A stretch of 64,000 nucleotides of DNA from Clostridia bacterium (GTDB lineage: Bacteria; Bacillota; Clostridia; Oscillospirales; CAG-272): NCBI GenBank assembly GCA_017622085.1, contig JAGARU010000049.1, forward strand, positions 1 to 64,000, in the 5' to 3' direction. A program made the translations under genes and the position numbers. The notes beneath the pieces were generated by a model that searched no databases, had not been told where the DNA came from, and saw only the letters and a program-made list of their open reading frames with translations. This document shows positions 588 to 18,187 of this stretch, piece by piece. Positions within the stretch are counted from its first letter, which is position 1, and each line of letters starts with the position of its first letter.

Positions 588-619
588 TAAATCACAAATC
601 AAGCATTATGGAGGAACAA

Positions 620-1441
620 ATGGAGCTACACCTGTCCGAAAAATTACGGTCTCTACGTCAAAGCAGGGGCAACACCCAAGAGGAACTCGCTAATTTTCTT
701 GGCATTTCCAGCCAATCAGTATCAAAGTGGGAACGGAACGAGGGTTATCCCGATATCACTCTTTTGCCGCGCATTGCAGGCTATTACCGCGTAACGATCG
801 ACACACTACTAGGCGTAGATGAACGAACCAAAGCAACTCGCGTAAAGGAAATAACCGATCAGTACAACACACTCCGGCGGCATATTCCTTTGGACAAAAA
901 CTACCGCCTTGACGAAGGAATCGCTCTCATCCGCGAAGCTCTCAACGAAATTCCCGGCGATTTTTTCCTCGAACAGCTTTTGGCCGCCGACCTGTCCTGG
1001 AAGGGAAAAAGCACCAATTCTCCCGCGGAGAAGGCCGCCTTGTTTGAAGAGGCAACCTGCCTTTGCCACGATATTTTAGTGCGTAGTACCGAGGATCGCT
1101 GGCGCAATTGCGCCCGGGAAATTCTATTAGTCATATATGCTGAACAGGGAAAAACGGAAGAAGCCTGTATGTTAGCCTACCAGCAGCCGGGCCCGTTTAC
1201 CACCTGTGAATATATGCTTACTTACGTTTTAAAGGGTAAAGCCTTAACAAATCAGTATAAGATCAATGCCGCGCTCTACTACGCTATTTTCCGTGAATCC
1301 ATCCTCAAAATGCAAGAGTGTCAAATCCCCCTTACGGATATGATATCTTCCCATGAGTTATCGGTTCACGGCATTCCTCAGAACGAATTTACAGAAGCGA
1401 TTGCTCAAATTAACAGCACCGACCGTTCAACCCGTGGTTGA
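620..1441 (+). CDS. HTH_XRE transcriptional regulator with helical C-terminal region
   Basis: A 273-residue protein. Residues about 7-62 form a lambda-repressor-like HTH (Cro/C1/XRE) with the usual TQEELANFLGISSQSVSKWE core, followed by an alpha-helical region of about 200 residues resembling degenerate TPRs. The start at 620 is preferred over ATG 608 because GGAGG (610-614) sits 5 bases ahead of it and the protein then begins like its three paralogues. A second XRE gene follows 93 bp downstream with its own promoter. Proteins of this shape are DNA-binding regulators that sense an unknown ligand, peptide or partner through the helical domain. The target is not visible here. Confidence 0.88.
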   Translation: MELHLSEKLRSLRQSRGNTQEELANFLGISSQSVSKWERNEGYPDITLLPRIAGYYRVTIDTLLGVDERTKATRVKEITDQYNTLRRHIPLDKNYRLDEGIALIREALNEIPGDFFLEQLLAADLSWKGKSTNSPAEKAALFEEATCLCHDILVRSTEDRWRNCAREILLVIYAEQGKTEEACMLAYQQPGPFTTCEYMLTYVLKGKALTNQYKINAALYYAIFRESILKMQECQIPLTDMISSHELSVHGIPQNEFTEAIAQINSTDRSTRG

Positions 1442-1462
1442 GGGGAATCGTTCAAGCGGTTA

Positions 1463-1491
1463 TTGTCCTGCCGGCCAAACTGTGTTATAGT
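1463..1491 (+). promoter_or_regulatory. Promoter of the second XRE gene
   Basis: TTGTCC (1463-1468), a 17-bp spacer and TATAGT (1486-1491). It resembles the promoter of the third XRE gene at 4263-4291 (TTGTCA-17-TATACT). Confidence 0.7.
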
Positions 1492-1534
1492 AAGGTCACA
1501 GGGCTGACCCGTTTTGAATTTCAGGAGGTGCAAC

Positions 1535-2311
1535 ATGAAAATTGGCAGCAAAATCAAAGAATTACGCAAGCGTCGCGGTATCACACAAGAGCAGCTTGCA
1601 AACAGCATCGGTATCTCGTTTCAAGCGGTGAGCAAGTGGGAAAACGGCATCGCTCTCCCGGATATCACTCTCGCCCCCATGCTGGCCAATTACTTTGGCG
1701 TCTCCATGGATGAGCTTTTCGACTATAATCGGAGTGACATCGAGCGGGAAATTGAAGAAATTACAGAAGAGTCGTGGAAGTATCGAGAAACAGACCCGGA
1801 TGAAGGTCGCCGCATTCTGGAAGCTGGCCTGCTGAAATATCCGGATAACGATATTCTGCTGAACAATCTGCTCTACGTGCTGAATTATACGGAAAATCCC
1901 GACGAGACCATTGCCATCGCTTCCGCCTTGATCGAAAAAACCGATCAGGCCGACGTAAAATACGATGCGCTCCGCTTTCTGGCTTATGCGTTTAAGGCAA
2001 AAGGAGATATCATCAGCGCCGAAGCCGCCATCGAACAAATTCCGGAGATCTATTTTACCAAATTAAGCGAACTGGCCTTTCTTCTGGACGGCCCAAGAAA
2101 GCGTGAAGCCGCAGAAAAGCAAAAATGGATCTCCTTTGAGGATCTTCTGCAAATGATGGAAAAGCTGGCCGAATGCTATGAGGCGGAAGGGGATAAAGAA
2201 AAAGCAATGGAGGAGCTGCAAAAAGCATTACAGCTGATTCCCATCCTTGAGAACAGCTCGTTTGACGAATACGCCGACTACTTCAAGAGTCGGATCGAAA
2301 AGCTGAAATGA
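1535..2311 (+). CDS. HTH_XRE regulator with TPR-like C-terminus
   Basis: A 258-residue protein. The N-terminal HTH_XRE (residues about 5-60, core TQEQLANSIGISFQAVSKWE) is followed by helical repeats with TPR-like spacing, for example CYEAEGDKEKAMEELQKAL near the C-terminus. Start 1535 has AGGAGGTG (1523-1530) ahead of it; an in-frame ATG at 1514 has no Shine-Dalgarno site. It lies in tandem after a similar regulator, suggesting duplication. The HTH-plus-TPR layout recalls peptide-responsive RRNPP regulators, but no signal-peptide gene is visible beside it, so peptide control is only a possibility. The gene ends at a strong bidirectional hairpin. Confidence 0.88.
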   Translation: MKIGSKIKELRKRRGITQEQLANSIGISFQAVSKWENGIALPDITLAPMLANYFGVSMDELFDYNRSDIEREIEEITEESWKYRETDPDEGRRILEAGLLKYPDNDILLNNLLYVLNYTENPDETIAIASALIEKTDQADVKYDALRFLAYAFKAKGDIISAEAAIEQIPEIYFTKLSELAFLLDGPRKREAAEKQKWISFEDLLQMMEKLAECYEAEGDKEKAMEELQKALQLIPILENSSFDEYADYFKSRIEKLK

Positions 2312-2382
2312 GGAAAGCAGCACAGGTAGTACGCTTACGAAAATGGCGTGTATCGACATTTAAAATCAGTAGTTATCAGAAA

Positions 2383-2415
2383 ACAGGACAGAGAATTCTA
2401 CATTCTCTGTCCTGT
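2383..2415. terminator. Bidirectional terminator hairpin
   Basis: A perfect 14-bp stem (ACAGGACAGAGAAT with its complement) and a 5-nt loop, between convergent genes. T-rich sequence flanks it on the minus strand (CTGTTTTCTG); on the plus strand the tail is the weaker CTTTA. Confidence 0.75.
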
Positions 2416-2485
2416 CTTTATTCGTGTATGTATGATATTCTATCATGGTCAAAACCATGCGATTCGTGTTTTAGGTATACAAGCA

Positions 2486-2971
2486 TCAATCGGAAAGCTT
2501 AATGCTTCCAATATATGTACCGTCATTTTTTACCTCATCATACTTTACAATGAGAGTTTGATCGCTTTCAAAAGCATTGACAATATCTTTGGAAAACACA
2601 TTGGAGGGAGAAATTCTTTGCTCACCCACTTCAATCACCACATTATATCCTAAAAAGCGACCGCGGTAATATTTTTCTTCCAACGAAATGATCTCAACAT
2701 CGCCCTCCAAAAAAGACGCATTATCCTTGCTCATGTTATAGTCAAACGTCGCATATTTTGCAAAAAGACCACCAAACAAAATGGAAAATATCAGCGGGAT
2801 TATTATAAACGGCATAAAGACAAAAGCCCGCTTTAGCCGTGACTTTGATTCTTTTCGTACTTGTTGAATCACTAATTTAATCACAAAAGCGGTAACCACT
2901 GCCATTCCAATTGCCATCAAGGCATAAATAATATTTATAAATATTCCGAATTCAAAGCTATAAATTTCCAT
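2486..2971 (-). CDS. Small membrane protein of unknown family
   Basis: A 161-residue protein with two predicted membrane helices (residues about 10-36 and 48-72), separated by a basic KESKSRLKR stretch that should face the cytoplasm. A soluble C-terminal half of about 90 residues is beta-rich (DVEIISLEEKYYRGRF and onwards) and should lie outside if the topology holds. I do not recognise the family. No strong Shine-Dalgarno site precedes the ATG; an AAAGGCGG sits about 12 bases upstream. It is flanked by a terminator downstream and by the DUF1622/hydrolase pair upstream, also on the minus strand. Confidence 0.65.
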   Translation of the reverse strand: MEIYSFEFGIFINIIYALMAIGMAVVTAFVIKLVIQQVRKESKSRLKRAFVFMPFIIIPLIFSILFGGLFAKYATFDYNMSKDNASFLEGDVEIISLEEKYYRGRFLGYNVVIEVGEQRISPSNVFSKDIVNAFESDQTLIVKYDEVKNDGTYIGSIKLSD

Positions 2972-3052
2972 GCGCCTATGATTACCGCCTTTCTGATTTT
3001 ATTTTTTATTGTAAGTTAAAAACCTTCACCAACAAAGGTGTAAGACGTTCTC

Positions 3053-3379
3053 TTATTTTTCAGAATGCTTCATTTCAAAATGGATCAACAAGCTGAGGAT
3101 CGCACGAAGCAAGATAACAGCACCCAAGATTAAAAGCTCGCTCATGTCCTGCACGATAACCGTCTTCAGAATCTCCGCCGCCATTTTAAACTCCAGACCG
3201 GCCGCCAGACCGCGCGCGAAGTGGAACTGGAGATTGATGTCCTTTTTCATAAAGGAATTTTGGATGTACTCCCAAAACGCATGAATGGCACTCCAGGCTA
3301 CCACCAAAATGCCCATGATTTCAAGGATAGAAATAATGTATGGCAAGACGATCTCAACCAAATGCTCTAAAACGTTCAT
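3053..3379 (-). CDS. DUF1622 family membrane protein
   Basis: A 108-residue protein with three hydrophobic helices: about 10-32, a weaker one near 55-65, and 78-98. The FHFARGLAAGLEFKMAAEILKT segment between them is the signature region of DUF1622 integral membrane proteins. AGGAGG precedes the ATG with normal spacing. The gene lies 9 bp after the alpha/beta hydrolase gene on the same strand, so the two are probably co-transcribed. The molecular function of DUF1622 is not established; the conserved basic and acidic residues inside helices suggest a small channel or transporter, which is inference. Confidence 0.82.
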   Translation of the reverse strand: MNVLEHLVEIVLPYIISILEIMGILVVAWSAIHAFWEYIQNSFMKKDINLQFHFARGLAAGLEFKMAAEILKTVIVQDMSELLILGAVILLRAILSLLIHFEMKHSEK

Positions 3380-3388
3380 TTCGACCTC

Positions 3389-4144
3389 CTATAGTTTGTA
3401 AAAATCTAAAATACTTTTCATTGCAAGCTCCATTTTCAAGGGATCCTTGAACCGATGATCTGCCCGCTCGACGGGCACGAACTCGATCAGCTGTTCATCG
3501 GCGAAATGCTGTACCTCGTCAAAGGATACCAGCTCATCCGCCGTTCCGTGCAGGATTCGAATGTCCTCCGCATAATCAAGAAAATCCCACGCCCGAACAT
3601 CGTTTTCTTGAAGCTCCAGAAGGAAGGGAAGATCCACCGGAATCTTTCGGTCAAAGCCAATCATCCGTTCCTTACCCTTGCGCAGGGGAACCATATCATC
3701 CTCATTCATAATTGCCGTGGTCAGCACGTCGTACATATTGACTGCCGGGCAACGCAATGCAATTTTCATAAAAGGATTTCCATGCTCCTTTACGTATTTC
3801 AGCGCAAGATATCCACCAAAGCTGGTGGCATAGCAGTAAATCGATTCGGCGCCTAAGCTCTCCCGAACGTGAGCAATTACCAATCGAAGGTATGTATCGC
3901 AATCGGCCAGCCGGAGCTTTTTCTTAACGTCATCTCCGTGACACGGCCAGTTGAAGGTTACCGTGGCCACGTTCTTGTATTTTGTAAGCACACGCTCCGC
4001 AAATTTTTCTGCCGCACTGTTATCCTTGTGTCCGCCAAATCCGTGACAAAAAATAACTGCACGCCGAATCGAGCGCAAATCGTTATAATACAGCTTACAA
4101 CGAACGTTGTGTCCCTCTGCATTGATCTCAAAATACCGTTGCAT
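3389..4144 (-). CDS. Alpha/beta hydrolase (serine hydrolase)
   Basis: A 251-residue cytoplasmic enzyme of the alpha/beta-hydrolase fold with no signal peptide. The oxyanion-hole motif HGFGG is at residues 34-38. The nucleophile elbow reads ATSFGG with Ser108, a variant of GxSxG in which the first Gly is Ala. The acid is Asp203 (HGTADELV) and the base is His230 (RADHRF), completing the triad. The size fits small esterases, acyltransferases or monoacylglycerol-lipase-like enzymes; substrate specificity cannot be read from the sequence. It is the first gene of a probable operon with the DUF1622 gene. GAGGTGAT precedes the start. Confidence 0.85.
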   Translation of the reverse strand: MQRYFEINAEGHNVRCKLYYNDLRSIRRAVIFCHGFGGHKDNSAAEKFAERVLTKYKNVATVTFNWPCHGDDVKKKLRLADCDTYLRLVIAHVRESLGAESIYCYATSFGGYLALKYVKEHGNPFMKIALRCPAVNMYDVLTTAIMNEDDMVPLRKGKERMIGFDRKIPVDLPFLLELQENDVRAWDFLDYAEDIRILHGTADELVSFDEVQHFADEQLIEFVPVERADHRFKDPLKMELAMKSILDFYKL

Positions 4145-4262
4145 CGTATCACCTCAAGCCCATTGTAACATAAAACGACACAAAATGATAGTGGAAAATA
4201 TAAATTCCGCAGGAGATTTAAGTATCACAACCATAAGTTGAATTTTCGAAAAAATCGCGCCA

Positions 4263-4291
4263 TTGTCAAGCAAGACGTGGTGTGCTATACT
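4263..4291 (+). promoter_or_regulatory. Promoter of the third XRE gene
   Basis: TTGTCA (4263-4268), a 17-bp spacer and TATACT (4286-4291). The region after it to the start codon is about 50 nt. Confidence 0.7.
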
Positions 4292-4341
4292 AAAGCCGTA
4301 AGATCTTACACGACAAATTCCAAACGGAAAGGATGATCGAA

Positions 4342-5355
4342 TTGAACATCAATCTCGGCACAAAGATCCGCGAGCTCCGCAAGAAAAATGGACTCACACA
4401 GGAGGACATGGCCGCCAAGCTGAATATTACCGCACAAGCCATCTCCAAATGGGAAAACGATACCTGCTATCCCGACATGGCACAAATCCCCGTTCTTGCC
4501 AACTTTTTCGGCGTCAGCCTCGACGAGCTGTTCTGCTATGACGTGGCGCAGTTAAATAAAAGAATCGACGGTATTATTGCAGAAGCAAGAAACTATTTTT
4601 GGAGCGCTCCCGAAACGTGCAAGGAAATTTATACCGATGCACTGAAGGAATATCCCGCAAACGAGCGTCTCCTGTCTGAGCTTCTTGACGTTTATATGAC
4701 CCACGGTTCAAGTGAAGAGGCGCTCCCTGTCGCGGAACTGCTGGTGCGAGAAGCAAAGGATGTATTTTCTGTTTGCCGCGCAAAATCCAATCTCGTCAGC
4801 CTCTACCTCAGGGAAGATCGCTATAACGATGCCAAAATGGTAATCGACACCTTACCGGAAATGTATCCCTACATGCTCTGCGACAAAATGCGCCAATCCT
4901 CCTACTCTCTGAAGGGTGAGGATCGCCTCGCTTGGGCAAGGGACTGGAAGATCATTGAGATCCAGGAGCTTTACATCGCCTGTGAGCTGGAGGGACGAGG
5001 CTATTGGGAAACAGGGAAGTATGAAGAAGCCCTTGCTTCTCTTGGCCAGTATCGCCGCGTCATTGAAATGTTTATGCAGTCCGAGGAGATATGCGTCAAT
5101 AGCTACCTGTGGAGCGGCATGCAGACCCACCATTGGTGCGCTTATCTTGAAGAGGCCGCCTGCCTTGCCAAGCTGGGCCGCACCGATAAGGCCCGGGAAA
5201 AAATTGATCGCGCCCACTATATTCTCACAAATTGCTGGAAGGAAAAGGACGGCTCCGCCGACTATCTCGCCGAAAATCCGGAAAAGTTCCTCGAGCCCTT
5301 CCGTCAGCACTACCGCGAATGGGAGCTCCACAAGCTCATCCCATGCCCGGTATAA
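4342..5355 (+). CDS. HTH_XRE regulator with long helical sensor region
   Basis: A 337-residue protein. An HTH_XRE domain (residues about 5-60) is followed by about 270 residues of TPR-like helices (for example YWETGKYEEALASLGQYRRV). The TTG at 4342 is chosen because AAAGGA (4328-4333) lies 8 bases ahead of it and the product then aligns with its paralogues. An ATG at 4333 overlaps that Shine-Dalgarno sequence and would add only three residues. It is monocistronic, with a promoter at 4263 and a strong terminator at 5401. Like the other XRE genes here it is probably a one-component regulator with an unknown ligand or partner. Confidence 0.87.
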   Translation: MNINLGTKIRELRKKNGLTQEDMAAKLNITAQAISKWENDTCYPDMAQIPVLANFFGVSLDELFCYDVAQLNKRIDGIIAEARNYFWSAPETCKEIYTDALKEYPANERLLSELLDVYMTHGSSEEALPVAELLVREAKDVFSVCRAKSNLVSLYLREDRYNDAKMVIDTLPEMYPYMLCDKMRQSSYSLKGEDRLAWARDWKIIEIQELYIACELEGRGYWETGKYEEALASLGQYRRVIEMFMQSEEICVNSYLWSGMQTHHWCAYLEEAACLAKLGRTDKAREKIDRAHYILTNCWKEKDGSADYLAENPEKFLEPFRQHYREWELHKLIPCPV

Positions 5356-13621: not shown

Positions 13622-13650
13622 TTGACGAAAAGAGAAAAATCACCGATAAT
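13622..13650 (+). promoter_or_regulatory. Promoter of the fourth XRE gene
   Basis: TTGACG (13622-13627), a 17-bp spacer and GATAAT (13645-13650), 45 bp ahead of the start codon. Confidence 0.68.
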
Positions 13651-13695: not shown

Positions 13696-14823
13696 ATGAA
13701 TGAATTGACCTTCTCACAAAAAATATTATCCGAACGGCGAAAGCGAGGGCTCACCCAAGAAGCATTGGCAAGTGAGCTCGGCGTATCCGCCCAAGCCGTC
13801 TCCAACTGGGAGCGCGGTGGATACCCGGATATCACCATGCTCCCCGGCATTGCAAATTTTTTTAAAATTACCATCGACGAGCTTTTAGGTAACGATACCA
13901 CCGGCCGAGAAGAGGATATCCGCCAATTTTTCAACCGATATTTTGATATGAAATACAACATGGATCGGGAGGGAGCCCTTCAGCTTAGTCTGGAATATGC
14001 AAGAAAATACCCGCAAAAATATGGAATTGCTACTTTGGCAGCCGACGCCATCGCACAGCTTCCACCAGAAAGACGTAAGGAATATCTCCCCACCCTCCGC
14101 ACACTCTGTAACCGCGTGATAGACGAAGCAACCAATCAAGGCGTCCGCAATCTTGCGATCCGTGTCATGTGTAGCGTCTGTGCGGATGATGAGGTAGACA
14201 AATGGTACGATATGTGCCCGCCTATTTATAATGCATGCCTGTGCGAAGTAAAAGAAGAACGTCTCTGGATCCAGGAAAAATATGAAGAGTGTCGCCAGCA
14301 ATTTGATATCAACAATTTAGTAATTTTGAACCATCTTCTTTTCCGTCCTCACCGAAATTACGATACCCCCGCACGTGCGATTGGACTTTCCAGATTCCGT
14401 ATCCGCATTCTTGAGCTGCTGGCTCTGAACGGAGAAATTCCGCCCGCCTGGATCGGCCATTATGCCGAGCTTCATTTCCGCCTGGCCTGCGCTTTGTTTG
14501 GGTGTGATCAGACGGAGGAAGGGTACGAAGCATTGGAAAAATCCTTTATTTTCATGGAAAAATGGTTCGCCATTCCGGATAACACTCCTCTCACTCTGGG
14601 CTCAGGGGACATATTTGGAAAGGTTCGCGGCGTAAAAGGGAAAACCCTTCTTGTGCATCCGGACGGTACTCTCTGTCATGAGCGGCTGGAGCGAGGCTTC
14701 CATATTATATCCTTTTACGATGCGCTAACCAAATCGGACGGATGGAGCTGGTTCGATTCCGTGCGCAACGAATCGCGCTTCCAAGAATACGTTGCAAAGG
14801 CAAAAGCCATGGAAAACAAATAA
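13696..14823 (+). CDS. HTH_XRE regulator sharing its C-terminal domain with the adjacent ECF sigma factor
   Basis: A 375-residue protein. An HTH_XRE domain (residues about 6-60) is followed by a short helical linker (about 70-170). A C-terminal domain of about 200 residues (178-375) is clearly homologous to the end of the ECF sigma protein encoded next door: both have ACALFGC, an RIRI(L/I)E...NG(E/K)IP.AW motif, and a GW.WF..VR..ERF-like end. The ATG has AAGGAGACAAAACC ahead of it. The gene has its own promoter and a hairpin after it. The shared domain may bind the same ligand or mediate contact between the two regulators. I know no name for it. Confidence 0.87.
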   Translation: MNELTFSQKILSERRKRGLTQEALASELGVSAQAVSNWERGGYPDITMLPGIANFFKITIDELLGNDTTGREEDIRQFFNRYFDMKYNMDREGALQLSLEYARKYPQKYGIATLAADAIAQLPPERRKEYLPTLRTLCNRVIDEATNQGVRNLAIRVMCSVCADDEVDKWYDMCPPIYNACLCEVKEERLWIQEKYEECRQQFDINNLVILNHLLFRPHRNYDTPARAIGLSRFRIRILELLALNGEIPPAWIGHYAELHFRLACALFGCDQTEEGYEALEKSFIFMEKWFAIPDNTPLTLGSGDIFGKVRGVKGKTLLVHPDGTLCHERLERGFHIISFYDALTKSDGWSWFDSVRNESRFQEYVAKAKAMENK

Positions 14824-14827
14824 GGCA

Positions 14828-14858
14828 AGGCCAAGGATGCACAACGCATCCTTGGCCT
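14828..14858 (+). terminator. Hairpin after the fourth XRE gene, probable weak terminator
   Basis: A perfect 13-bp stem (AGGCCAAGGATGC and its complement, 5-nt loop) right after the stop codon. The T-tract is poor (CACTTGTAT), so some readthrough into the ECF gene is possible. Confidence 0.6.
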
Positions 14859-14871
14859 CACTTGTATACCC

Positions 14872-14900
14872 TTGAAAATATCCCCTCGCTTCGGTATAAT
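14872..14900 (+). promoter_or_regulatory. Promoter of the ECF sigma gene
   Basis: TTGAAA (14872-14877), a 17-bp spacer and TATAAT (14895-14900). This is a housekeeping-type promoter. The leader to the start codon is about 105 nt and carries a small GTCTTAAAGAC hairpin. Confidence 0.75.
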
Positions 14901-15010
14901 AAATTTATAAAAAATTTTTACATTCCACCCAACCCTTTCTATGCTCCCGTGTCTTAAAGACGAGCGCTTAAAAATGAAAATTTTCACTTATAAAGAAAGG
15001 AGAATGCATA

Positions 15011-18000
15011 ATGCAGTATCTCAACCATACCGACGAGACCTTGGTGCTATTAACGTTGGCCGGAGAGCAAAAAGCATACGAAGCGCTGGTCACACGGCAT
15101 CAAAAGGGCGTTGTCGCCGCCGCATGGCGCATTACCCGCAATCAGTTTATGGCAGAGGATGCCGCCCAGGACGCCTTTGTCACCGCGTGGATGAAGCTGA
15201 ATACCCTGCGCGAGCCGGAAAAGTACGGCGCGTGGGTCTGCCGTATCGCAAAAAACTGTGCTCTCAATATGATCACCCGCTATCGCGGATATATCGATTT
15301 GGATCTGGTTGGAAATCTGGATCTATCCGAGGATCCACGGCAAAATCCCGCCGAGCTCTATGCCTTCTCCGAGGAAAAGGAAGAGCTTTACAAAAGCCTC
15401 AATAAGTTGCCCGAGCGCGTCGGTCAGATCATCTATCTGCATTATTTTGAGGGTCTGTCCGTCTCTGAGATCGCCGATCGGATGCGAATCTCCGAGGGAA
15501 CCGTCAAATGGCAGCTTCACGATGGCAGAAAGCGGATCAGAAAGGATCTTTGTGCAATGAACGAGCACTATAGCGACACTCTCGTGCAGAGAGTTATGAA
15601 AAAGGTGGAAGAATTAAAGCTTTGGCAACTGAAAACCGACAAAACCGGCTTCGAAGCCGTATACGAGGGCGTCCTGCGCGAAGTCGAGGACTTACCTGAA
15701 AGCGACAACAAATATCATGCATTAGCCGACGTACTCATGCGCGGTTGGTGGTGGCTACCCGGAGATAAAAACGATGCCCTCTTTGCCCGCATCCGGGAAG
15801 CTGCGATCAAGGGCAAAAACGATGAAGTCATGGAGTTTATCGTTTCCCGTGAGGATTCGCAGGTATATGGCGGCACCCGAATCGATTTTATGCTGAATAA
15901 GCAGATCCCCATGCTGGAAAAAGCAGGATTCACCCGCGCACTTGGCAGAGAATGGTTCTGGCTGGCCTACGAATATTATCGCAACGGCCAACCGGATAAG
16001 GGCAAGGAAGCCTATGCCACCGCACACCGCATAATGGAACCCTCCCACGCGTACCGCGCTATGATACCCGGTGCACTGAAAATGGAAGAAGCGATCGCCG
16101 CAAACTATAAGTCAAAAAATTTGCACAAATACCGCATTGGTGGCAGTGCGGACGAATTCCGTTACTTCAATGGCCAGCTACGGTATTGGAACACCAAGTT
16201 TTACGGGGAAGGATACCTCTACTCCTTCGACGATGAGATTACAGAAATATTTCGTCGCTCCGCTCACTGCGATAGCCGGCTGTTCGATTTAAGCCTTAAA
16301 CCGGGCGAATTTATTACCGGAACGGACGGCACGACTCTTACGTTTGTCTCCGCCGCTGAGTCAGTTGAAACTCCCGCCGGCGTGTTTGAGGGATGCCAGC
16401 TCTGGGTTACAAACTACGCGCAAAAGTTTGCGCAGATCACGGTCAAAAGCTACTACAAATCCGGCGTAGGTATCGTAAAGCATGAAGCCTTGAGCGATGG
16501 CGTCAGTGATGTCCGCCTCCTTTGCTCGTACCACGTTGAGGGTGGGGAAGGCTTGTTGCCCCTGAGCACCGGCAATACTTGGGAATACAGCGACACCTAC
16601 CGTACCGATTGCATTCGTTCCAAGCTCTCAGTCACCGTAGCCCATGCAGACCGGGAATCGGTTATTCTTGCAACACAGTACGATGTGGAACGGCTGAACT
16701 ACGATGAGAACCGCTGGATCGAGATGATTGAAGCCATAAGAAATGAATATCTTGTTTCCGACAAAGAAGCTTCTCGTGTAAACGACGTTTCCTATGCAAT
16801 CGACCGCGCCAAAATTCTGGCTGCAACTCCGATGGAAAAGGCCCATACGCAGGCGGCCACCGACGTCGTTCGCCGCATTATGGAAACCGACACTACCTTT
16901 AACCCCAACCATACCGCGACCGGTCATTGGAATTTCTTCCGCAAGCTGTACGTAAATCGGGAAAACGATGCCGTCACCACCACAAGCAATTACCGGTATT
17001 CCTTTGAGTGGAAAAACATGTCCGGCACCGGAGACGCGGGAACACCTCTCCTTTATAATGACGTTTACGGAATTTTGGAGGATGCAACGCAATACCTATG
17101 GTCGGACGAATGGCGAATTGGTGCCATGCCGATGGTAGAGTATGCGCTCTGGGGAGACGCGATCAAAACAAAAATCGTTTGCACCGATGGCGGAACCGTA
17201 CAAACCTTGGCCGGAACCTTTGATAATTGTCTTAAGCTCTCCCTCGACATCAGCGGCCTGAGAAGGGGCCTTGCCTACCGCGGTGGACATAAAGAATACA
17301 TCTTTGCGCCCGGCGTTGGCATCGTCCGTACCGTCAACGAGTTCTCTGAAGGCACAAAAAAGGCGGTTTACGAGTTGACCGATTATCAAGGCTCCGGGGA
17401 AGGATATATGCCGATGGGCGACGGCATGATGCGTCGCTACGAGGCTATCGGCTTAACCGACGGCTACGTTGGCGCGGTAGAATACACGTATGTGGCCGAA
17501 GAAACCGGACGTATTGCTATTTTTGTAAACCAGACCGGAATCCGCAATCTGCCTCCCCCTATCACACAGTACCGCGCAATTTGCTATGAGGTAGAGGAGG
17601 ACAAGCTTTGGGAAGCGGGTAAGCACGAGGAAAGTCGCTTGGCGCACGCCGTCAACAATTTCCGCCTGTTGCTCCACTTCTTGGGTCGTGTAAACCGCAA
17701 TCTGGGTGCCCCGGAAAGCGCCGTCGAATGGGGTAAATACCAAATTCGCATCATCGAGTCGCTCTCAGAAAACGGCAAGATTCCTCGCGCATGGCTTGCC
17801 CGCTATTGGCGCATTCATTTTGCTACTGCATGTGCGCTTTTCGGGTGCAATACGCCGGAGAAAAAGGAAGAGGGCTATCGCTACCTGGATCGCGCTTTCG
17901 CGCTCTATCCCGAGTGGGCGTGCATACCCGACGGGGAGGCTCTTGAGGTAGGAAATCCGCTGATTTACGGAGACATTAAGCTCTTCAAGAGCAAGGAATT

Positions 18001-18187
18001 CTTTGCCTTGCCGGATGGAACCCTTGAGTCTTTTGGAGAATATGTCCACCTCTTTAATCCCTCCCCGGACATAATCTACTACGGAATGACCGCCACCCAT
18101 GGCTGGGAATGGTTCAACCCCGTGCGGGAGGAAGAACGCTTTAAAGCATATGTAGAACGCGCAAGGGCGCTCCTTGAAGCGAAATAA
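15011..18187 (+). CDS. Giant ECF sigma factor with about 870-residue C-terminal extension
   Basis: A 1058-residue soluble protein. Residues about 8-185 are an ECF sigma-70 factor: region 2 (YEALVTRHQKGVVAAAWR, then AEDAAQDAFVTAW) and region 4 (LPERVGQIIYLHYF, SVSEIADRMRISEGTVKW). Next comes a helical part with TPR-like character (about 190-380). Two related beta-rich modules follow near residues 440-540 and 718-815; both carry a T.AG.F..C motif, a GVGIV motif and a G.GEG..P end. The last 205 residues (about 854-1058) match the C-terminus of the neighbouring XRE protein. No membrane segment or anti-sigma gene is visible. AAAGGAG lies 8 bases ahead of the ATG. Typical ECF factors have about 170-200 residues. 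The extension probably senses something in the cytoplasm and controls the sigma part. Confidence 0.9.
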   Translation: MQYLNHTDETLVLLTLAGEQKAYEALVTRHQKGVVAAAWRITRNQFMAEDAAQDAFVTAWMKLNTLREPEKYGAWVCRIAKNCALNMITRYRGYIDLDLVGNLDLSEDPRQNPAELYAFSEEKEELYKSLNKLPERVGQIIYLHYFEGLSVSEIADRMRISEGTVKWQLHDGRKRIRKDLCAMNEHYSDTLVQRVMKKVEELKLWQLKTDKTGFEAVYEGVLREVEDLPESDNKYHALADVLMRGWWWLPGDKNDALFARIREAAIKGKNDEVMEFIVSREDSQVYGGTRIDFMLNKQIPMLEKAGFTRALGREWFWLAYEYYRNGQPDKGKEAYATAHRIMEPSHAYRAMIPGALKMEEAIAANYKSKNLHKYRIGGSADEFRYFNGQLRYWNTKFYGEGYLYSFDDEITEIFRRSAHCDSRLFDLSLKPGEFITGTDGTTLTFVSAAESVETPAGVFEGCQLWVTNYAQKFAQITVKSYYKSGVGIVKHEALSDGVSDVRLLCSYHVEGGEGLLPLSTGNTWEYSDTYRTDCIRSKLSVTVAHADRESVILATQYDVERLNYDENRWIEMIEAIRNEYLVSDKEASRVNDVSYAIDRAKILAATPMEKAHTQAATDVVRRIMETDTTFNPNHTATGHWNFFRKLYVNRENDAVTTTSNYRYSFEWKNMSGTGDAGTPLLYNDVYGILEDATQYLWSDEWRIGAMPMVEYALWGDAIKTKIVCTDGGTVQTLAGTFDNCLKLSLDISGLRRGLAYRGGHKEYIFAPGVGIVRTVNEFSEGTKKAVYELTDYQGSGEGYMPMGDGMMRRYEAIGLTDGYVGAVEYTYVAEETGRIAIFVNQTGIRNLPPPITQYRAICYEVEEDKLWEAGKHEESRLAHAVNNFRLLLHFLGRVNRNLGAPESAVEWGKYQIRIIESLSENGKIPRAWLARYWRIHFATACALFGCNTPEKKEEGYRYLDRAFALYPEWACIPDGEALEVGNPLIYGDIKLFKSKEFFALPDGTLESFGEYVHLFNPSPDIIYYGMTATHGWEWFNPVREEERFKAYVERARALLEAK

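Follow-up and report, generated by a model that had tools for sequence, protein, structure and literature searches.

An unnamed C-terminal domain shared by XRE-family regulators and long ECF sigma factors of a Clostridia lineage

Fused sensors have been described for extracytoplasmic function (ECF) sigma factors; the signal has been identified for few groups. In the known ECF groups with fused C-terminal parts, control is thought to occur through ligand- or partner-driven conformational change or through proteolysis; ECF42, one such group, has a C-terminal extension of about 200 residues that is rich in tetratricopeptide repeats (TPRs) (PMC8999054). For RRNPP receptors, a size of 250-500 residues, peptide-binding TPRs and an adjacent propeptide gene serve as criteria (PMC10075063). 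Here, two neighbouring genes from a gut Clostridia bacterium are compared with these systems. They lie in a stretch of 64,000 nucleotides (the window; assembly GCA_017622085.1, contig JAGARU010000049.1, positions 1 to 64,000, here C7:1-64000) in a genome of 2.9 Mb. The upstream gene encodes an XRE-family regulator of 375 aa (13696..14823, plus strand) and the downstream gene encodes an ECF sigma factor of 1058 aa with a long C-terminal extension (15011..18187, plus strand). The two proteins have unrelated DNA-binding heads and end in the same tail.

The XRE tail spans residues 178-375 (198 residues; 14227..14820, plus strand) and the ECF tail residues 854-1058 (205 residues; 17570..18184, plus strand). 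The two are identical at 80 of 203 positions (39%, with 57% positive; BLASTP, E 2e-51), a similarity far above chance. When the full-length proteins are compared, the alignable part is XRE 172-372 and ECF 846-1054; outside the tails there is no significant alignment. A search of the window's own genome with the XRE tail also retrieves the ECF tail (E 1.5e-43). Separate AlphaFold2 models agree on how the elements follow one another in the two tails: five helices come first, then a short strand/helix/strand insert and finally three or four further helices. The predicted local distance difference test score (pLDDT) is mostly 87-98 for XRE residues 182-374 and mostly 84-97 for ECF residues 858-1057. 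The first-pass annotation of this DNA had aligned the two tails over their whole length. Its reading frames and tail boundaries are right for both genes, the tails are homologous, and the motifs to which it pointed are present: ACALFGC is identical in both tails, and both carry RIRI/IRII...NG.IP.AW and GW.WF..VR...RF.

The distribution of the tail was searched with a profile built from 32 tails; the counts hold at the thresholds used. Tail-positive genomes make up 123 of 295 in the same family, 28 of 245 in the order and 8 of 291 in the class. In the phylum sample only one of 299 genomes is positive, namely the window's own; the 298 others, spread across the phylum, gave no match. The tail is patchy and restricted to the window's class in the samples searched, and a single genome can hold up to seven matches. 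Relatives found by sequence are mostly from gut and rumen metagenome-assembled genomes labelled Clostridia, Oscillospiraceae and similar. The XRE tail has no match in plasmids and the ECF tail has none in phages. No relative came from a protein-pattern scan of genome contigs when the XRE tail was the only query; an ECF alignment query succeeded.

The open reading frames (ORFs) of the fetched loci (numbered with L below) were classified with models of five parts. Two architectures are found: 82 distinct sigma-mid-tail proteins and 51 distinct HTH-tail proteins, which carry a helix-turn-helix (HTH) head and nearly all have a recognised TPR-like middle. The tailed HTH-TPR regulators have 355-515 residues; the tailed ECF sigma factors have about 1050 residues and form one family. 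This tabulation agrees with the earlier claim that two unrelated heads carry the tail, and no third kind of tail-bearing head was seen among these ORFs. The other tail-bearing ORFs are genes cut at contig or locus ends, or split genes. Examples of the latter are L055 (4802-7972) and L183 (7995-11158), where the sigma part of the ECF gene is separate from the middle-tail part; a frameshift, an assembly error or a true split could each account for this. Tandem runs of XRE regulator genes, some of them tailed, occur in L214 (2-5045) and L213 (4041-9921), and in L213 a 517-aa ECF gene lies downstream of the run.

The simplest reading of the tail's history is that it was captured once, in the distant past, by the ECF family, with an HTH-TPR regulator as the probable donor. 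A tree of 49 tails places 22 of the 23 ECF tails in one starred set (support 95/88), and a single ECF clade is not rejected by the approximately unbiased (AU) test (p 0.44). In a tree of 65 tails, one branch (support 67/78, not starred) has all 25 ECF tails on the same side. The XRE tails are deeper and more diverse than the ECF tails in the tail trees. Some proteins, of about 850-890 residues, have the sigma-plus-middle region but no tail, and one such ECF paralog, of 894 aa, is encoded in the window's own genome (G000:C22; L284, 481-3165). In a tree of the sigma-plus-middle region, distant tail-less paralogs, including this one, are basal and the tailed proteins are a derived group with one tail-less pair inside it; when all tailed ECF proteins are constrained to one clade, the likelihood is 12.4 units above that of the quick search (p-AU 0.73). 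Domain capture, which the first-pass annotation had suggested, is the best reading because the ECF tails act as one group and the ECF tree has tail-less paralogs at its base. In L299 (1878-5303), a 1141-aa ECF protein ends in a repeat of part of its middle region, which stands where the tail would be and is another C-terminal addition.

The ECF genes share a promoter-like element in their leaders. In the window, this putative ECF-type promoter reads AACCCTTT then GTGTCT (14931..14954, plus strand); the block conserved 5' of the ECF genes is AACCTTTT then GTGTCT. ECF promoters have AAC at -35 and GTC at -10. The resemblance of the conserved block to such a promoter makes autoregulation likely, and the ECF protein probably amplifies its own expression from this putative site. 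A strict form of the pattern is found in 48 of 78 tailed ECF leaders and in none of the shuffled controls. The spacing is identical in 44 of the 48; it is one base shorter in the other four, which include the window. On reading, looser variants are found at most of the remaining tailed loci and in tail-less relatives too, and the leader alignment has eleven invariant columns. None of 50 leaders of tailed XRE genes contains the element. In the loci L055-L243 it is present in 52 leaders of long ECF genes, tailed and tail-less alike.

The strict pattern occurs only once in the window's genome, in the ECF gene's own leader. A looser pattern has four sites compared with three in a reversed control, so no further regulon targets can be named. 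Across 25 ECF-bearing genomes, several of the other sites lie 5' of ECF genes of a second type. This second type (L250, L251, L254, L255, L260, L262 and L268) has the same -35 and -10 words with shorter spacing, and a different palindrome, GAAAGCTTTC. L129 contains a related complete ECF gene of 548 aa; there, the long ECF gene has ECF genes of 548 and 540 aa on its two sides.

Two symmetrical sequences accompany the element. An inverted repeat, TGTCT-taa-AGACG (14950..14962, unstranded, read directly), lies over the proposed -10; its general form is TGTCT-n3-AGACR, and its pairs are nearly invariant in the leader alignment. The palindrome TGAAAATTTTCA (14975..14986, unstranded) precedes the ribosome-binding site, and palindromes of at least 10 bases recur at the equivalent place in 25 of 45 leaders, compared with about 4% in shuffles. 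This palindrome keeps its symmetry and varies in sequence between loci (TGAAAATTTTCA, CGGGAATTCCCG, GGAATATTCC and others); it may be an operator or a small RNA hairpin. A structured RNA was also considered for the ECF leader and is disfavoured. Rfam has no match within 14500-15200. RNAalifold of the leader gives one five-pair hairpin in which no pair is changed on both sides; a promoter with a DNA inverted repeat is therefore preferred. Within 2.5 kb of 80 ECF loci, there is no shared gene family, only scattered ABC transporter ATPases, and no conserved anti-sigma gene; consequently, the ECF protein probably senses by itself.

No Pfam or NCBIfam model reaches its cut-off on the tail, in line with the earlier statement that no named domain was known for it, and a PDB sequence search with the tail profile gave no significant match. 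A few members match TPR_2 and TPR_8 weakly. NF047558 (TPR_END_plus, a TPR end-of-group model) weakly matches 13 of 32 tails, with a best E of 0.0014; the similarity lies at the tail's end (W.WF..VR...RF). In the AlphaFold2 model, the XRE tail helices continue directly from the TPR-like middle part; its strand-bearing end (residues 292-375) is barely covered by the Foldseek and VIA-align searches. The weak TPR matches are compatible with helical repeats that end in a C-terminal cap. The best explanation is that the first half of the tail consists of helices that extend a TPR-type solenoid and the second half is a small strand/helix cap. These matches could also be taken to mean that the tails are merely look-alike TPR repeats belonging to a ubiquitous known domain. 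This is very improbable: the tails align over their full length with specific conserved residues, the profile found nothing in the 298 other genomes of the phylum sample, and NF047558 covers only the last residues of the tail and stays under its curated cut-off (14.3 bits for the window XRE tail, compared with 32). The tail is a lineage-specific domain with a probable sensing role. Transfer in the opposite direction, by local recombination or gene conversion from an ECF gene to the window XRE gene, would explain why the window XRE tail is closer to ECF tails from other genomes (up to 46%) than to most XRE tails, and why its nearest rows in the 49-tail tree are ECF tails. However, its nearest row in the 65-tail tree is the tail of L204, the closest XRE protein to the window's, which is 48% identical over its whole length, head included. 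In addition, the whole XRE family carries the tail, and 39% identity between the two window tails is too low for a recent conversion. Such a transfer is improbable, and the ECF family is preferred as the recipient of the tail.

The position of the genes could suggest a different relationship. They are on the same strand, 187 bases apart, with homologous tails, and the inverted repeat and palindrome in the ECF leader could be operators. The two could form one circuit in which both tails bind one signal, a possibility that the first-pass annotation had raised. The XRE protein would then control the ECF gene, either as its repressor or as its activator. This is unlikely, since the arrangement is not conserved. 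Of 98 distinct loci with a tailed ECF gene, 58 include 3 kb or more of flanking DNA on each side; the window alone has a tailed XRE gene within 3 kb of the tailed ECF gene (1/58). In L153, a tailed XRE gene only distantly related to the window's (34% identity) is 5.2 kb from the ECF gene, with oppositely directed genes between them, and the 13-kb locus L204 contains no tailed ECF gene. The inverted repeat and palindromes are conserved at loci without an XRE neighbour, the 50 tailed XRE genes examined lack the ECF-type element, and the tails of the supposed partners are only 39% identical. Each window gene also has its own promoter-like site, predicted by consensus: TTGACG-17-GATAAT (sigma-70-type, 10/12 matches; 13622..13650, plus strand) 5' of the XRE gene and TTGAAA-17-TATAAT (sigma-A-type, 11/12 matches; 14872..14900, plus strand) 5' of the ECF gene. 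A strong hairpin, terminator-like on the minus strand only, separates the genes (14825..14861, unstranded; -29.1 kcal/mol, z -7.8 in an RNA fold of 14815-14880). Its plus-strand T run is weak, so read-through from the XRE gene into the ECF gene is possible. A conserved pair is unsupported, and the adjacency in the window looks incidental.

The XRE protein (HTH_3, E 1.5e-13; AlphaFold2 model, mean pLDDT 92.5) has two parts ahead of the tail. The HTH head, residues 1-65 (13696..13890, plus strand), contains the Pfam HTH_3 match at 13-63; HTH domains match residues 2-66 at Z 10-12 (VIA-align), among them the P22 c2 repressor (3jxb; Z 12.0, rmsd 1.4 over 66 residues). The TPR-like helical middle, residues 66-177 (13891..14226, plus strand), has model helices at 68-171, and about 100 residues within 70-176 match TPR structures in VIA-align. 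The protein has no match to a TPR hidden Markov model; its fold resembles TPR solenoids at Z 10-12.6, a range that is common for helical repeats. In a Foldseek comparison of the whole model with the PDB, PlcR, PrgX, Rgg2 and ComR are on top and ElrR is lower (best E 2.7e-4). PADLOC matches the HTH part only. Further upstream in the window, 608-5355 contains three more XRE-type HTH genes (locus L091).

The downstream protein (mean pLDDT 88.2) has sigma regions 2 and 4 with a short linker and no region 3, as expected of an ECF sigma factor (Sigma70_r2, E 3e-12; Sigma70_r4_2, E 1.1e-14; TIGR02937, 88 bits compared with a cut-off of 42.9). This sigma2-sigma4 head, residues 1-185 (15011..15565, plus strand), matches SigW, sigmaE and AlgU in Foldseek (E about 5e-5 to 1e-4). 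It is followed by a helical repeat domain, residues 186-366 (15566..16108, plus strand), assigned from model helices and a weak TPR_2 match at 314-341; there are weak fold matches to RapF and NprR (Z 9.3-9.7), and VIA-align of the ECF model covers mainly residues 3-183. Two beta domains, both with model strands, precede the tail: one that is DUF3108-like, residues 374-546 (16130..16648, plus strand), and one that is probably DUF3108-like, residues 636-846 (16916..17548, plus strand). PF21347 (DUF3108_like) scores 34 bits on the ECF protein against a cut-off of 27, in two stretches, of which the best is 446-493.

The favoured reading, of moderate confidence, is that a lineage-specific tail native to HTH-TPR regulators was captured once by an ECF family, that it has a sensing role and that the adjacency in the window is incidental. 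Homology, distribution, the existence of tail-less paralogs, the conserved promoter-like element and the absence of conserved pairing are direct results, while the direction of transfer, ligand sensing and autoregulation are inferences. The tail would originally belong to a diverse family of one-component HTH-TPR regulators with the build of PlcR, PrgX and Rgg; an ECF ancestor which already had a C-terminal extension of helical repeats and two beta domains would have gained the tail once by fusion. The likeliest mechanism is that, in both regulators, a ligand in the cytoplasm or a partner protein would bind to the tail and the neighbouring helical repeats; the resulting conformational change would free or block the head, whether HTH or sigma. 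In general plan, the XRE protein would work like an RRNPP receptor. The ECF extension, including the tail, is proposed as a sensor controlling the sigma head because known fused-ECF groups are believed to work by conformational change or proteolysis (PMC8999054). A more specific proposal, that the tail is a portable ligand-sensing module on HTH and sigma heads and that a small ligand or peptide in the cytoplasm switches this ECF family directly, with no anti-sigma factor involved, is possible and should be regarded as tentative.

A number of points weigh against the capture reading and its sensing role. The tail-less pair L190 and L197 falls inside the tailed group in the unconstrained tree; this may be due to later tail loss in a few lineages. 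The direction of transfer is drawn from XRE diversity and the tail-less ECF paralogs, and the tail trees are unrooted. The Foldseek matches to RRNPP receptors have TM-scores of about 0.2-0.3, which indicates that the relative placement of the domains differs. The ECF promoter is inferred from sequence conservation. The shared sensor-like tail offers a handle, since a ligand found in the simpler HTH regulator would be testable on the sigma factor. Tailed and tail-less ECF paralogs, sometimes in one genome, are a natural control for the contribution of the tail.

Both proteins resemble described systems and differ from them. Like the RRNPP receptors PlcR, PrgX, Rgg, ComR and NprR, the XRE protein has an XRE-type HTH followed by a helical solenoid that is TPR-like in predicted fold, and its 375 residues are within the size range of the group. 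It differs in its extra C-terminal strand/helix cap, and no adjacent propeptide gene was found: a simple scan for small secreted propeptide genes beside tailed XRE genes gave a candidate in 1 of 43 loci, compared with 5% in shuffled flanks, and none at the window gene. For this reason, the protein is not filed as an RRNPP member. The ECF protein shares with the groups that have a fused regulatory extension a sigma2-sigma4 head, a soluble C-terminal part (in a protein of 1058 aa) and the lack of a conserved anti-sigma gene nearby. ECF42 uses its TPRs, thought to bind a partner protein, in about 200 residues; in contrast, the window extension has about 870 residues with two beta domains and the new tail, and falls outside the ECF42 description. 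ECF41 and ECF56 carry SnoaL-like domains, unlike the extension described here. A sensor fused to an ECF factor and an HTH plus TPR regulator are both known in kind; what is new in detail is an unnamed domain common to ECF and HTH-TPR regulators.

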